DNA from: Vicinamibacterales bacterium
GTDB lineage: Bacteria; Acidobacteriota; Vicinamibacteria; Vicinamibacterales; 2-12-FULL-66-21
Assembly: GCA_035699745.1 (NCBI GenBank)
Contig: DASSPH010000067.1
Span: 1-64,000, forward strand
Direction: 5' to 3'
Length of the DNA: 64,000 nt
The position numbers and the translations under genes are program-made. Positions 36,729 to 45,781 of this stretch are shown one piece after another. The first letter of the stretch is position 1. Each line of letters opens with the position of its first letter. Under the pieces are notes generated by a model. The model ran no database searches, was not told the origin of the DNA, and saw nothing but the letters and a program-made list of their open reading frames with translations.

Positions 36729-38537
36729 ATGCGGGCCCTTTACGTCATTCTGCCCATCCTCGGGATCCTCGCCATCGCCTACCGCTACTACAGCGCGTTC
36801 ATCGCCGCGCGGGTGATGTGCCTCGACGACCGCCGGCCGACGCCGGCGCACGTCCGCCCCGACGGGCACAACTACCACGTGACGACGCGCTGGGTGCTGT
36901 TCGGGCACCACTTCGCCGCCATCGCCGGCGCCGGCCCCCTGATCGGCCCGGTGCTCGCCGCACAGTTCGGCTACGCCCCCGGGCTCATCTGGCTGGTTGG
37001 CGGCGTCTGTCTGGCCGGCGCCGTGCACGACATGATCATCCTCTGGGCGTCGACACGCCGCGGCGGCGCGTCGCTCGCCGACATCGCCCGCTCGGAGATC
37101 GGCCCCGTCGCCGGAACCACCGCCGCCCTCGCCATCCTCTTCATCGTCATCATCGCGCTTGCCGGCCTCGGCCTGGCGGTGGTCAACGCTCTCGAGCACA
37201 GCGCGTGGGGCACCTTCACGATCGGGATGTCGATCCCGCTCGCGCTCTTCGTCGGCTGGTACATGTACCGCCTCCGGCCCGGAAAGATCACCGAAGCCAC
37301 GATCATCGGCGTGGCCGGGCTGCTGCTGTGCGTGGTCCTCGGCAAACCGCTGGCCGGCTCCTCCCTCGGGCACTACTTCGAGTTCACCCGCACGCAATTG
37401 ATCGTGCTGATGGCCGGGTACGGATTCATCGCGTCCGTGCTGCCGGTGTGGCTGCTGCTCGCGCCGCGCGACTACCTCAGCTCGTTCATGAAGATCGGCA
37501 CCATCGGGCTGCTGATCCTCGGCGTCATCGTCGTCAACCCGGTGCTGGAGATGCCCGCGTTCTCGCAGTTCGTCGGCGGCGGCGGACCGATCGTTCCCGG
37601 CCCCCTCTTCCCGTTCGCGTTCATCACCATCGCGTGCGGCGCGATCTCCGGGTTCCACTCGCTGATCTCGTCGGGGACGACGCCGAAGATGGTGGACAAG
37701 GAATCCGACATCCGGCCGATCGGCTACGGCGCGATGCTCATGGAGGGACTCGTCGGGATCGTGTCGATCATCGCCGCCAGCGCGATGCATCCGGGCGACT
37801 ACTTCGCCATCAACACCCCGCCCGCGGTGTTCGCCCAGCTCGGGCTCCAGGTGACGAACCTGCCGGCGCTCGAGGCCGCCGTGCAGGAGACCGTCGCCGG
37901 CCGCACCGGCGGCGCGGTGTCGCTCGCCATCGGCATGGCGCAGATCTTCGCCGGCCTGCCCGGCATGCGCCAGCTCGTCGACTACTGGTACCACTTCGCG
38001 ATCATGTTCGAGGCGCTGTTCATCCTCACCACGATCGACGCCGGCACGCGCGTGGCGCGGTTCCTCGTCGGCGAGTTCCTCGGCCGCGCCTACACGCCCT
38101 TCTCGCGCCACGACTGGCTGCCCGGCGCGGTGGTCTCGACCCTGCTGGTGGTCGGCGCCTGGGCCTACTTCATCTGGGCCGGCAGCATCTCCACCATCTG
38201 GCCGATGTTCGGCATCGCCAACCAGCTGCTCGCCGCGGTTGCGCTGGCGGTGGGCACGACGGTGATCATCAACGCCGGCCGCGCCCGCTATGCGTGGGTG
38301 ACGATCGCGCCGCTGGCGTTCGTCTCGATCACCACGCTCACCGCGGGCGCGCTGAGCGTGCGCGACAACTTCTACCCGATGGCGGTCGGCCCGGATCCCG
38401 CCAGGCACTTCCAGGGGTATCTGAACTCGACCCTGACGATCGTGATGATGGCGTGCGTGATCGTGATCCTGTCGAGCGCCGTGCTGCGGTGGGTGAGGGT
38501 GTTGAACGGGACGCTGAAGCCCGCGGAGGCAGTGTAG
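36729..38537 (+). CDS. cstA: Carbon starvation protein CstA, peptide/pyruvate transporter
   Basis: 602 aa with about 16 membrane segments and the full CstA pattern: [22 protein letters not shown] near the N-terminus, [23 protein letters not shown], and [20 protein letters not shown] in the middle. CstA proteins take up pyruvate and peptides under carbon limitation. Its N-terminus (MRALYVI) fits a start at ATG 36729. The next gene starts directly after its stop, so the two are co-transcribed. Confidence 0.95.
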
Positions 38538-38999
38538 ATGGACGAGAAGCGGCTCTTTACCGGGTTCTGGAACAAGGAATCGAAGACGACGCACAAGGTG
38601 CTGGCGCGGATCCCGGACGGATCCGATTACCGGCCGGATCCGAAGTCGCGGACAGCCAAGGAAATCGCCTGGCAGATCGTCTGCGAGGAGGGCATGCTCA
38701 TCGACGCGCTGGAGACCGGCAAGGCCGAATGGGCCCCGCAGCCCGCCCCGGCGACGATGCAGGAGCTGGTCGACGCGTACGAGAAACAGAGCGCCGCCAT
38801 CGAAACGCGGCTCGCGGCGCTGCCTGACGCGAAGTGGACCGGCGCCCTCGAGTTCTTCGGCCAGCAGCGTCCGGCCGCGCCCATGGCATGGAGCTTCCTC
38901 TTCGACATCGTCCACCACCGCGGCCAGATCACGACGTATCTCCGCCCCATGGGCTCGAAGGTGCCGCAGATCTACGGCCCGAGCGGCGACGAACCCTAG
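38538..38999 (+). CDS. DinB/YfiT-superfamily four-helix-bundle protein
   Basis: 153 aa. Helical throughout with the metal-binding His positions of the DinB fold: one in the second helix region is replaced by Glu/Cys surroundings (EIAWQIVCEEGML) and the C-terminal HHRGQ motif is intact. The family includes bacillithiol and mycothiol transferases and uncharacterised stress proteins. The ATG abuts the cstA stop codon (TAGATG), so it is translated from the cstA message. Substrate unknown. Confidence 0.85.
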   Translation: MDEKRLFTGFWNKESKTTHKVLARIPDGSDYRPDPKSRTAKEIAWQIVCEEGMLIDALETGKAEWAPQPAPATMQELVDAYEKQSAAIETRLAALPDAKWTGALEFFGQQRPAAPMAWSFLFDIVHHRGQITTYLRPMGSKVPQIYGPSGDEP

Positions 39000-39003
39000 A
39001 GCT

Positions 39004-39066
39004 GGGATCGGGGATCGGGGATCAGGGATTAGGGATCGGGGATTAGGGATTAGGGATTGGGGATTA
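39004..39066. repeat. Nine tandem GGGATYR heptamers
   Basis: Nine head-to-tail copies of GGGAT(T/C)(A/G) run without gaps from 39004 to 39066. The last copy supplies the TAA stop codon of the convergent SGNH-hydrolase gene. This microsatellite fills the whole gap between two convergent genes. Confidence 0.92.
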
Positions 39067-39720
39067 TGGGTGGAGGGCGCGCAGAATCGCCGGTGCGATG
39101 GCGTCCGCCATCCTGCGATAGCCTGCTGCGTCCGGGTGCAACTGATCCGGTGAGCTCGCCAGCATGTCGGGATTGTCCGCGGCCGCGACGGCTGCGCGCG
39201 TGTCGACGACGGTCACTGGCGGATCCCCTTGTCCGGCGCGCCCGCGGATCCAGTCGTTGATCGCCTTCATCCGCGCGTTCTGATCGGGGGTCGCGGTGTT
39301 GTAGGGAATGATCGTGCCGGCGACGACCCGGATGCCCGCGGCATGGGCGCGCCGGTACATCGACTGCAGCTGATCGATGACGTGTTGGGCGGGACGCCCC
39401 TGATACACGTCGTTCACTCCGGCGACGATGACGACGACCCGAGGCTTCTGCGCGAGGACGTCCGCGTCGAACCGCGCGGCAATCTGATCGCTGCGCTGCG
39501 CGTTGATCCCCTGATTCACGACCTCCCACTCGGGATGCGCGCGCATCAGCCAGTAGGCGTACTGGCTGGTCTCGTCGCCGCTGCCGCCCGGCGGCGCCTC
39601 GCGCGGCGACTTGAACGCCGGCGTCCCCGCCGTCGTCGAGTCCCCCATCGCGACGATCCGGACGCGCGAGACCTGCGTCATGTGCGGCAGCAAGGCGGCA
39701 ATCAGCAGCAGGACGATCAC
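39064..39720 (-). CDS. SGNH/GDSL-family esterase
   Basis: 218 aa from GTG 39720. A hydrophobic N-terminus serves as signal or anchor. Block I GDST (Ser about residue 28), the Gly block (about 70), block III GVND (about 100) and block V DQLHPD (about 192) make a complete SGNH active site, as in lysophospholipase/TesA and carbohydrate esterases. The start codon sits in an 8-bp tandem repeat and overlaps the stop of the upstream dipeptidase-fusion gene (GTGA), giving translational coupling. Confidence 0.88.
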
Positions 39721-39744
39721 CCGATCACCCGATCACCCGACGAC
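39713..39744. repeat. 8-bp tandem repeat GATCACCC at a gene junction
   Basis: Three perfect copies of GATCACCC and one variant (GACGACCC) span the stop of the M19-fusion gene and the start of the SGNH gene. Eight is not a multiple of three. Removing one unit would join the two reading frames without a stop. Confidence 0.85.
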
Positions 39745-41681
39745 CCGCTGACTTCGATCTCGTCGACCAGCAGCTTGAGGATCAGCTCGTACTGCCGCGC
39801 CTTGCCGCCGGCGAGTCCGTCGCGCGCGCGATCCGCGGCGTTGCGGCCGTCACGGTCCCGCGCCGTCGGATCGCCGCCGGCGGCGAGCAGCAGGCGAACG
39901 ATCTCGGCGTTCCCCGCTTCCGCCGCGCGCATCACCAGGGTGACGCGATGCTCGTCTGCGCCCCTCGCGTCCGCCCCCGCGGCGAGCAGCGCGCGCACCG
40001 CGTTCTCGTCTCCGGCCATGACTGCCGCCGCCAGCTTGTCGTCCCCCTTGACGTACTTCTGCGTGCCGGCGATCTGATCGATCTTCGCTTCGAAGTCCTT
40101 CAGCTTCTGCGGGCCGGCCACGTAATCCAGCACCCTCTTGCTGCGCCCTCCGGCTGACAGCGTCGTGAACACGGTCGGGTGATCGGTCATGAGCGACCGG
40201 TATTCGTCCTGCAGGTCGAAGAAGCCCTCGTCCTGCATCTCCTGGGCGAGCGCGCGGACGGCGGCAGGATCGATCTTCCACGTGTGATTGCCGGTCACCT
40301 TCACGTGCTGGCGCCCGTTGTAGGTGACAGTCCCGTCGTCGCGAAGCGTGACGGTGTACACGGGGCAGAAGCCGAAACAGGCGGTCCGCTCGAGCGTGAT
40401 GGCGATCGGCGCCTGCACCGGCACGGACTGCGCCGCGGCCGGCGCGGCCGGGAAGAGCGCGACGGACGGTCCGCGCTGTTTCTGCAGACGGGCCGAGACC
40501 TTCTCGACCTCGCTCATGACGCGCAGCACGTTCCGGCCGAGGATCTTCCGCAGGTCGGCATCGCTGTACCCGCGGCGCATCAGCTCCGCGGTCAGCGCGG
40601 GGTACGCCGACACGTTGTCGAGGTTCTTGACCGTCTGCGTAATCCCGTCGAAGTCGCCGCCGACGCCGATGTGATCGACGCCCGCGATCTTGCGGATGTG
40701 ATCGACGTGGTCCGCCACTTCCGCGATCGTCGCTTCGGGCGCGGGATTCGACGCCGTCCACTGCGCCATGGCGCTCTTCACGAGATCCGGCTGGTTGCCG
40801 GTCGTCTTCGAGATCTTCTCTTGCTCCGCCGTCTGCCGCCTGTTCCACTCGTTCACTTTCGGCGAGACGAAACCGGGCACGAACGTGACCATGACGACCC
40901 CGCCGTTCTTCGGCATCTGCTTCAGGATCTCGTCGGGCACGTTGCGCGGATGGTCGTTGAGCGCGCGCGCGTCCGAGTGCGAAAAGATCACCGGCGCCTG
41001 GGTGACGCGCAGCGCGTCGGCCATGGTCTCGGGGGAGACGTGGCTCAGATCGACCAGCATTCCCAGCCAGTTCATCTCGCGCACGACCTCTTCGCCGAAC
41101 GGCGACAGCCCGTTGCTCTTCGGCGTGTCGGTCGCCGAGTCGGCCCACGGCGTGTTGAGCGAGTGGGTGATCGTCATGTAGCGCGCGCCGAGGCGATAGA
41201 ACATCCGCAGGTTGGCGAGCGAGTTGTCGATCGAGTGGCCGCCTTCCATGCCGATCAGCGACGCGATCCGGCCGGCCTTCCGGATCCGGGTGACGTCGGC
41301 GGCCGTCGACGCCAGCTCGAACGTGTCGGGGTACTTGCGCACCATGCGATGGACGATGTCGATCTGCTCGAGCGTGGCCGTGACGGCGCTCTGTCCCTGG
41401 AGCGTCGCGGGGACGTAGACCGACCAGAACTGTCCGCCGACGCCGCCCGCTTTCAGGCGCGGGATGTCGGTCATGATCGACGGCTGCGAGACGCGGATGT
41501 CGAGCTTGTCGAGATCGCGCGCGGGATCGTGCTCGCGCAGGGCCCACGGGTAATCGTTGTGGCCGTCGATGACCGGCGCCTGCCGGTGCAGCGCGCGGGC
41601 GCGCTCGATCGGGTTCGACTGGGCCGGGAGAGAAGGCATCGCGAGCACCGCCAGCAGGGAAAGGCCGAGCATACGGAACAT
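39717..41681 (-). CDS. M19 membrane-dipeptidase fused to DUF6438-like and ankyrin domains
   Basis: 654 aa with signal peptide (1-20). The M19 dipeptidase domain (about 25-390) has the zinc ligands HND (IDGHNDYP), [15 protein letters not shown] and VDLSHVS, and matches renal-dipeptidase-type enzymes that cleave dipeptides with D- or L-residues at the C-terminus. A Cys-containing strand domain (about 430-530, [12 protein letters not shown]) resembles DUF6438. Two to three ankyrin repeats (about 545-640; [36 protein letters not shown]) end the protein. The combination is unusual; each part is clear by itself. Confidence 0.88.
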
Positions 41682-44136: not shown

Positions 44137-45273
44137 TTGATCAGCGTCGCCGCCATCCGGATGCAGCAGTTCGGGGTGCAGTTCTACCAGGCATCACTCT
44201 CGGCCAACGACATCGACAAGCTCGTCCGGTTCGAGGTCCTCGACTACGGGGAACAGGGGCAGCCGGTCCGCGGCGGACGCAAGAAGAGCGCGGCGCCGTC
44301 GAAGGTGAACTGGGACCTGCTCGAACGGCGGATCGCCTCCAGCGACAAGGCGTATCAGCGCGCGATCATCCGCCGCAAGATCGACGAGCTGGTCGCGTAC
44401 TACGAGCAGTGCCGGCAGGCGCGCGATCTACCGTCGATCGCCGGCGCCGTGATCATCTCGTGCGACGAGACGCTGAAGTTCGAGCCGGTCGAGAACGGAT
44501 CGCCGCTCGGCACGCTGAAGGTGCCGGAGCGCGAGGGGATCCTGCGCGCGATCGACGGCCAGCACCGGCTGCTCGCGCTGCACGCCGACATCGATCGGTT
44601 CGGCGACGAAAGCTTCACCGTGCCGGCGATCATCTTCGATCGCCTTCCCGAGGATCACGTCGTCCAGATGTTCGTCACCATCAACGCGAAGCACACGCGG
44701 CTGAACGCCTCGCACCTGGTGTCGCTGTCGGGACGGCAGTTGTACCGCGACGAGAACCTCGCGGCGGCGCACGACGTGATGCGGGCGCTGAACGATCGCG
44801 AAGACTCACCGCTCTACGGCGAGATCAAGCTGCTCGGCGTCGGCAGCGGGCGCGTCGCGCAGGCGCCGCTGGCGCAGGAGCTGAAGAAGCTGTTCGCGTC
44901 GGAGGCGTTCGGGCCGGGCAAGAAGGGCGAGGCGTTCCGCGAGGAGTCGAAGAAGTTCTTCGTCAACTACCTGAAGCAGGTGGCGCAGGTGTTCGGCGCG
45001 GCGTGGACCGGCCGCAAGTACAGCATCAAGTCGGCGAGCGCGCTGCGCGCGTTCATCCGGGTGGCGCCGGACGTCGTCCGGCGCCTGGATCAGGAGCACG
45101 CCGACCGCACGGACTTCCGCGCCATCGGCCGCGTCATCTCCCCGTGGGGCCGGCGGATCGGCGATCTCCGCTTCGAGACCGAGGGGGCGTGGAAACGCGC
45201 GGGGACTACCGTCGACTCGCTGTCGAAGGAGCTGCGGCTGGCGCTGCAGTACCCGGAGGGAGCTTCGGTGTAG
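44137..45273 (+). CDS. DGQHR-domain (DndB-like) protein
   Basis: 378 aa from TTG 44137, placed by the GGAGG site five bases upstream. The signature IDGQHRLLAL lies at about residues 137-146, followed by FVTINAKHTRLNASHL (about 190-206), both characteristic of DGQHR/DndB family proteins. DndB regulates phosphorothioate DNA modification; other DGQHR proteins occur in phage-defence and mobile loci. No dndA, C, D or E gene is in the window, so this is an orphan with unknown role. It is flanked by a repeat cluster and a candidate small RNA. Confidence 0.9.
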   Translation: MISVAAIRMQQFGVQFYQASLSANDIDKLVRFEVLDYGEQGQPVRGGRKKSAAPSKVNWDLLERRIASSDKAYQRAIIRRKIDELVAYYEQCRQARDLPSIAGAVIISCDETLKFEPVENGSPLGTLKVPEREGILRAIDGQHRLLALHADIDRFGDESFTVPAIIFDRLPEDHVVQMFVTINAKHTRLNASHLVSLSGRQLYRDENLAAAHDVMRALNDREDSPLYGEIKLLGVGSGRVAQAPLAQELKKLFASEAFGPGKKGEAFREESKKFFVNYLKQVAQVFGAAWTGRKYSIKSASALRAFIRVAPDVVRRLDQEHADRTDFRAIGRVISPWGRRIGDLRFETEGAWKRAGTTVDSLSKELRLALQYPEGASV

Positions 45274-45278
45274 TCGCT

Positions 45279-45412
45279 TCGCTCCCTGTCGGGCAGGGAC
45301 AGGGACAGTCGCTTCGCTCCCCGTCGGGCAGAGTGGAAGGGGGCTCGCTTCGCTCGCTGTCGGGCAGGGTGGAAGGGGGGCTCGCTTCGCTCGCTGTTGG
45401 GCAGAGTGGAAT
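45279..45412 (+). repeat. Second cluster of TCGCTTCGCTC-type repeats
   Basis: Four copies of TCGCTTCGCTCSCTGTCGGGCAG-like units (third base positions vary) in head-to-tail order, separated by GGGACAGGGACAG or AGTGGAAGGGGGC spacers. The units share TCGCTTCGCTC and TCGGGC with the cluster at 3659-4275. The following bases (45412-45471) hold more degenerate GAGCG-rich sequence and no gene. Confidence 0.85.
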
Positions 45413-45471: not shown

Positions 45472-45528
45472 GTCCGGGGGAAGCGCGACGTGCTCGGTAA
45501 CCCTGCGCGTCGCGATATTCCCCCGGAC
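45472..45528. other. Large inverted repeat, two-step stem
   Basis: Arms GTCCGGGGGAA (45472-45482) and TTCCCCCGGAC (45518-45528) pair over 11 bp, with an inner stem CGCGAC (45484-45489) against GTCGCG (45509-45514). It lies directly beyond the minus-strand terminator. It may end or protect the DGQHR transcript, or be the trace of a mobile element; it lacks a U-run on the plus strand. Confidence 0.7.
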
Positions 45529-45561
45529 AAAAAAAGGGGCGCCGAAGAAATTCGGCGCCCC
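45529..45561 (-). terminator. Intrinsic terminator of a minus-strand RNA
   Basis: On the minus strand, an 11-bp perfect stem GGGGCGCCGAA / TTCGGCGCCCC (plus-strand coordinates 45536-45546 and 45551-45561) with a four-base loop, followed by seven consecutive U (45535-45529). This is a textbook Rho-independent terminator. No protein gene precedes it on this strand for hundreds of bases. Confidence 0.92.
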
Positions 45562-45632
45562 ACGGATTTGCAAACGACCCGGCTCCCCAGCAACTCACGG
45601 CTCCCTGCCGTAAATATTCAGGCCGTCTGCAC
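45529..45632 (-). ncRNA. Candidate sigma-54-dependent small RNA, about 105 nt
   Basis: The RNA is bounded by a -24/-12 promoter (45658-45643) and a strong intrinsic terminator, both on the minus strand; the start is placed 12 bases past the -12 element, near 45632. It has no coding frame with a ribosome site. Predicted folds: a small hairpin ACGGC-AGGGA-GCCGU (45611-45597) with an exposed AGGGA loop, a second GGGGAGC element, and the terminator stem. Free-standing RNA is the simplest reading because no gene lies between promoter and terminator. It does not match any family I recognise. Confidence 0.65.
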
Positions 45633-45642
45633 CCTCCTATTG

Positions 45643-45658
45643 AGCAAGGGGCGTACCG
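45643..45658 (-). promoter_or_regulatory. Sigma-54-type (-24/-12) promoter
   Basis: Minus-strand sequence CGGTACGCCCCTTGCT matches the sigma-54 consensus TGGCACGNNNNTTGCW with GG and GC exactly ten bases apart. The -24 GG pairs with plus-strand 45656-45657 and the -12 GC with 45644-45645. It points at the small-RNA region. Confidence 0.72.
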
Positions 45659-45701
45659 CTGTTTTTTCAAGCATTTCGAGGGACGGCGCCCCGGGCGGAC
45701 C

Positions 45702-45715
45702 GACAGTTTTGGGAC
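45702..45715 (-). promoter_or_regulatory. Candidate activator site GTCCCAAAACTGTC
   Basis: Minus-strand GTCCCAAAACTGTC lies about 45-60 bp upstream of the small-RNA -24 element, a usual place for a sigma-54 activator site. The same motif (GTCCCAAANCTG) recurs twice near the other sigma-54-type promoter. A second CAAAACTGT copy lies 10 bases further upstream. Confidence 0.55.
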
Positions 45716-45781
45716 GTTCGATTACAGTTTTGTCTTGCTGCGCTTCTGACCCTGGCGTTCAGCGTTCCGGCGGCCGCCGCG

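Follow-up and report, generated by a model that had tools for sequence, protein, structure and literature searches.

On the minus strand of a 64-kb window, the whole stretch of Vicinamibacterales DNA that was analysed, a sigma-54 promoter and an intrinsic terminator flank a short segment without a protein gene. The questions raised by this locus are whether the segment specifies a regulatory RNA and, if so, what switches it on and how it would act. The comparisons below indicate that the window does contain a conserved gene for an RNA of about 104 nt (45529..45632, minus strand), which matches a covariance model of its relatives and for which a regulatory role is likely.

The promoter, GGTACGCCCCTTGCT (45643..45657, minus strand), is the sole full match to GGYAYR-N4-TTGCW in the window, where shuffling gives an expectation of 0.22. 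Counting from its C taken as -12 places the predicted +1 near 45632 and thus gives the RNA its length of about 104 nt. The intrinsic terminator (45529..45561, minus strand), identified by a terminator scan and seen in homologues, consists of an 11-bp stem, a 4-nt loop and a tract of seven U. Terminators of this kind are expected by chance at 1.7 per 4 kb; among the homologues, a terminator hairpin with at least four T in eight positions is found in 41 of 51, and one with at least five T in 30, against 2 in shuffles. No homologue has a closed reading frame of more than 28 codons inside the RNA, and in many of them no frame exceeds 7. The sequence-only reading had described a minus-strand -24/-12 promoter, a perfect 11-bp stem terminator with seven U and, between them, an RNA of about 105 nt with no protein gene; its coordinates and parts were correct, with the promoter at 45657-45643 and the terminator, as described, at 45561-45529, and the length and the lack of a coded protein held up. 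A sigma-54 site scoring at least 8/10 is located 10-17 nt before the first stem of the RNA in 45 of 51 homologues. Three others (L068, L069 and L072) have GGCACG or GGCATG followed by four bases and TTGG, a form missed by the promoter scan, and in five (L024, L040, L060, L065 and L074) there is no clear activator motif or promoter. The near-fixed place of the predicted promoter before the RNA is a feature of sigma-54-dependent, enhancer-activated, free-standing small RNAs.

The fold of the RNA has a predicted energy of -61.6 kcal/mol, compared with -39.3 for shuffles (z -6.5), and takes the form of a three-way junction followed by the terminator. Stem P1 (13 bp, starting from about +2) is made from a 5' arm at 45619..45631 and a 3' arm at 45569..45581; hairpin P2 (9 bp; 45593..45615) has a variable loop, AGGGA in this case; and hairpin P3 (45582..45591) has the sequence GCU-GGGG-AGC, all on the minus strand. 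In an alignment of 48 distinct homologues, which was fitted to the covariance model, 94.8% of cells are in standard pairs (98% in the P2 stem), and 13 of 20 pairs have changed on both sides, with 100 such cells against 26.5 in shuffles. In control alignments slid out of register the paired fraction drops to 29-50%. An independent MAFFT alignment of 30 sequences, used in trimmed form (the untrimmed one, with terminators, misaligned P1), gives a similar picture, with 95.0% paired and 11 pairs changed on both sides in 54 cells, against 17.8. P1 contributes most of the covariation (9 of 10 modelled pairs), and P2 a smaller share (4 of 7). The P3 hairpin, GCU-G(3-6)-AGC-C, is nearly invariant, so covariation is uninformative about it. 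Its loop is made of G only, three to six of them, in 51 of 51 homologues, whilst the P2 loop occurs in 23 forms. P2 is thus likely to be a structural element and P3 the working part of the molecule. The combination of a conserved structure, no coded protein and a terminator of its own, albeit one whose U-tract is weak in the homologues of some families, is what would be expected of a free-standing small RNA.

The RNA seems to be a property of one bacterial order. BLAST recovered the element from 11 of the 12 family genomes and from 39 of the 193 in the class. With a covariance model, built first on 30 sequences and later on 52, it was detected in 100 of the 162 genomes representing the order Vicinamibacterales (about 60%), a count that depends on assembly quality, some assemblies being fragmented; elsewhere in the class the model gave marginal matches only. 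The first model, run on 396 genomes of the phylum, likewise gave only marginal matches outside the order (E 0.002-0.01), which are weak and were treated as chance. The window RNA itself scores 71.8 bits (E 2.7e-17) against a model of which it is part, and all these E-values are rough because the models were short-calibrated. A collection-wide scan for an exact core pattern, which covered the TGCGGC form only and is therefore an under-count, gave at least 5 matches, all in records of Acidobacteria or Vicinamibacterales metagenome-assembled genomes. Most genomes have one copy, and no further copies were found within the source genome. One genome of family f15 (G189) has two copies 335 bp apart (L067 1501-1556 and 1836-1891), and another (G094) has a second, weaker copy at a separate locus (L086 and L108).

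Searches of Rfam 15 with the window and 20 homologous loci gave no match at the gathering threshold. The best sub-threshold match was to suhB, at 22.8 bits against 41, and the weak suhB/mmgR and CsrC matches were discounted as resting largely or wholly on the terminator. The RNA can thus be placed, provisionally, as a new family of a kind already described, the free-standing small RNAs activated through sigma-54 and an enhancer. The expectation that no known family would match was borne out in this way, and the comparisons proposed with it gave clear answers: a covariance search of relatives recovers the RNA widely in its order, compensatory changes are abundant, and stem, promoter and spacing, whose lack of conservation would have told against a gene, are all conserved.

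What might activate such a promoter is suggested by the sequence upstream. CAAAACTGT occurs there twice, 21 bp apart (45732-45703), a tandem absent from 100 shuffles. Motif discovery in the upstream regions of the homologues produced aCAaAttTGTAAt, with a log-likelihood gain of 323 at width 18 compared with 82-86 for shuffled sequence; the consensus of the site is ACARAnnYGTAAT. A putative distal activator (enhancer) site, ACAAAACTGTAAT (45721..45733, minus strand), matches this motif, and a putative proximal site, CCAAAACTGTC (45702..45712, minus strand), centred 21 bp from it, contains the second CAAAACTGT copy. The sequence-only reading had noted one candidate site about 50 bp upstream; that site is present, but it is the nearer of two. 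In relatives, too, a second, weaker copy of the motif is usual about 20-22 bp past the first. The distances from the distal site to the -24 element, pooled over the RNA promoters and the kinase promoters described below and drawn from related genomes that are not independent, are 51-52, 61-64, 71-76, 84-87, 91-95, 106 and 117 bp, with none at 53-60, 65-70, 77-83 or 88-90 bp. These distances appear to follow the helical period, and tandem, helically phased sites are typical of promoters served by an enhancer-binding protein. The RNA would therefore possess the upstream element characteristic of sigma-54 small RNAs.

The same site provides a candidate for the activator. A strict pattern of activator motif plus promoter has 34 matches in the 162 genomes and none in the reversed control. 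Where the genes around a site were inspected, the site mostly stood before the RNA or before an operon that encodes a PAS/HisKA kinase and a receiver-AAA+-Fis response regulator. In the source genome the pattern occurs in exactly two places, before the RNA and before this operon (C83:40965-41061). The operon spans positions 38338-40961 of contig C83, unlinked to the RNA gene, and by its domains encodes the histidine kinase (39750-40961) and the response regulator (38338-39732). Among the 30 best kinase orthologues, a sigma-54 promoter together with the activator motif is present in 25 (24 at 10/10 and one at 9/10), and none reaches 9/10 in the reversed-sequence control. Across genomes, 91 have both RNA and kinase, 9 the RNA with no kinase detected, 33 the kinase only and 29 neither (Fisher p 7e-8, a value inflated by common descent). 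A looser activator pattern, used to look for more regulon members, was noisy, with control matches in one genome.

By domains the response regulator is of the NtrC type. Against NCBI curated models it falls below every named NtrC-type cut-off compared (LuxO, GlrR, NtrC, AtoC and ZraR), the best being AtoC at 488 against 714 bits, followed by NtrC at 437 against 558.6, LuxO at 351 against 800 and GlrR at 336 against 763. The shared site points to this regulator as the probable binding protein upstream of both transcription units. Since the operon itself is preceded by the activator site and a sigma-54 promoter, the predicted arrangement is a two-component system that activates itself and also drives the RNA. 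The kinase operon is likely to be the wider part of the arrangement, with the RNA as one of its predicted outputs. Families f3, f5, f9 and f10 keep the kinase without a detectable RNA, and at one f3 locus (L163) the promoter and activator site are also kept; the RNA may have been lost or have diverged in these families. Elsewhere the activator site and promoter precede a pilM-like gene (L165, in G126) and, in two genomes of different families (L153 in G007 and L160 in G062), genes for secreted fibronectin-type proteins, which are hints of a cell-surface regulon.

A free-standing sigma-54 small RNA gene switched on by one dedicated two-component system is thus very probably what this locus represents. 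The gene, its structure, its promoter, the shared activator site and the association with the two-component operon emerge from comparison of genomes, and transcription in vivo is to be expected from them. On receipt of a stimulus the kinase would phosphorylate the response regulator, which would bind the two tandem dyads 21 bp apart and loop to the -24/-12 promoter. Through sigma-54 RNA polymerase the regulator would fire its own operon, in positive feedback, as well as the RNA. The transcript would start directly with P1, fold into a three-way junction that displays the G-loop hairpin P3, and end at the terminator. It would probably act in trans, and the most likely mode of action is for the G-run of P3 to pair with C-rich stretches of target mRNAs. 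This pairing step is the weakest of the mechanism, because the 12-nt P3 complement, sought as a target site in the source genome, occurs at the RNA locus only, and because pairing of the RNA with the kinase leader is not above that of shuffled sequence; we put it forward tentatively, as falling a little short of probable.

Several known systems use a similar logic. The myxobacterial Pxr is an RNA of about 108 nt with its own predicted sigma-54 promoter and an upstream enhancer region; it is linked to an NtrC-like response regulator, PxrR, and a kinase, PxrK, and folds into three separate stem-loops, the first of which is essential and has a C-rich loop (PMC5568312, PMC5684412). The two systems are alike in RNA size, sigma-54 promoter, enhancer region and the pairing of an NtrC-type regulator with a kinase. 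However, Pxr adjoins pxrR whereas the Vicinamibacterales RNA and its regulator are unlinked, and the three stem-loops of Pxr, compared here by description, contrast with a three-way junction bearing a G-only loop. In Vibrio, the Qrr RNAs are also sigma-54 RNAs, activated by the phosphorylated form of LuxO, an NtrC-family response regulator, and the two RNA copies of some Vicinamibacterales genomes recall the Qrr arrangement; sequence and fold are unrelated to those of Qrr, there is no Rfam match, and the regulator falls short of the LuxO model, as given above. In the Enterobacteria, GlmY is a small RNA under two-component, sigma-54 control by GlrR/QseF, and again neither the Rfam model nor the GlrR model is matched. 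CrcZ of Pseudomonas is a sigma-54 RNA under the NtrC-type regulator CbrB. It too has no Rfam match here, and it differs in that the Vicinamibacterales RNA has one G-loop hairpin and no repeated sequestration sites. By its logic the new circuit would seem closest to LuxO-Qrr, with PxrK/PxrR-Pxr closer in size and partners.

CrcZ is also the model for the main rival to mRNA pairing, in which the G-run hairpin P3 or the junction titrates an RNA-binding protein other than CsrA, with the upstream control unchanged. A closed, hardly varying hairpin on a rigid junction is what a protein ligand would be expected to present, and the failure to find the target complement beyond the RNA locus in the source genome also fits. 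However, known sponges carry repeated sites and this RNA has one invariant hairpin, the loop varies from 3 to 6 G, and there is no candidate protein; such a role is conceivable but on balance unlikely. What would distinguish the RNA is an exposed G-only loop of 3-6 G on a covarying junction, made as the dedicated output of a predicted self-activating sigma-54 switch, and that this loop recognises C-rich sites or a protein in a novel mode is an idea that we entertain with considerable reserve.

A very improbable reading is that the element acts in cis, as a leader, attenuator or riboswitch of a neighbour or as an antisense RNA to the convergent gene for a DGQHR/DndB-domain protein (44137-45273 in the window, identified by domain matches). 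The RNA adjoins the 3' end of a DGQHR-domain gene in 28 of 41 regions compared, and some families have a LamB/YcsF gene downstream of the RNA in the same direction. However, families differ in how the DGQHR gene is placed relative to the RNA (convergent, or upstream and co-directional), and the gene was not detected in genomes such as G186-G190, which keep the RNA; in the window a strong terminator ends the RNA and the next gene is convergent. Such variation in which genes adjoin the RNA, and in their direction, makes a cis role unlikely, and a functional link between the RNA and the DGQHR gene was rejected, the synteny being conserved but not obligatory. The DGQHR/DndB-domain protein is 75-92% identical across the order, with the RNA at the 3' end of its gene in many families, on either strand; it scores far below the cut-offs of the phosphorothioation relatives DGQHR_dnd_1 and DpdB. 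Between the end of this gene and the RNA terminator are four imperfect 35-37-bp tandem repeats (45268-45412; TCGCTTCGCTCCCTGTCGGGCAGG...). Directly after the U-tract a long imperfect hairpin was read by eye (45475-45531; GTCCGGGGGAA ... TTCCCCCGGAC), which may serve as a terminator for the convergent gene or else be a REP-like element.

Sequestration of CsrA/RsmA, in the manner of CsrB or RsmZ with GGA shown in hairpin loops, is scarcely credible. Both loops have GGA or GGGA in the source family and there is the weak CsrC match, confined to the terminator; but the P2-loop GGA is lost in most other families, leaving one GGA with its A paired, and CsrA is absent from the complete source genome and from 30 of the 40 genomes searched, the source included. 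A chance pairing of promoter-like and terminator-like sequence can be dismissed as having virtually no likelihood, since one such promoter match per window is not rare alone (20 of 100 shuffles have at least one) but many families share the conserved set of promoter, spacing, covarying stem, G-loop hairpin and activator site, and this conservation of the whole arrangement excludes a chance origin of its parts.

A search of the open-licence literature joining sigma-54, small RNA and Acidobacteria found nothing relevant. The sigma-54 small RNA and its predicted two-component switch would represent a new RNA family for which structure, promoter and activator site are defined and a regulator is probable, and which occurs in about 60% of genomes from this common soil order. 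In both Vibrio and Myxococcus, changes of lifestyle are governed by two-component systems that have a small RNA as a main output. Another case, apparently an independent one, would help to explain why the two-component/small-RNA circuit recurs, and through its activator site the remainder of the regulon could be mapped.
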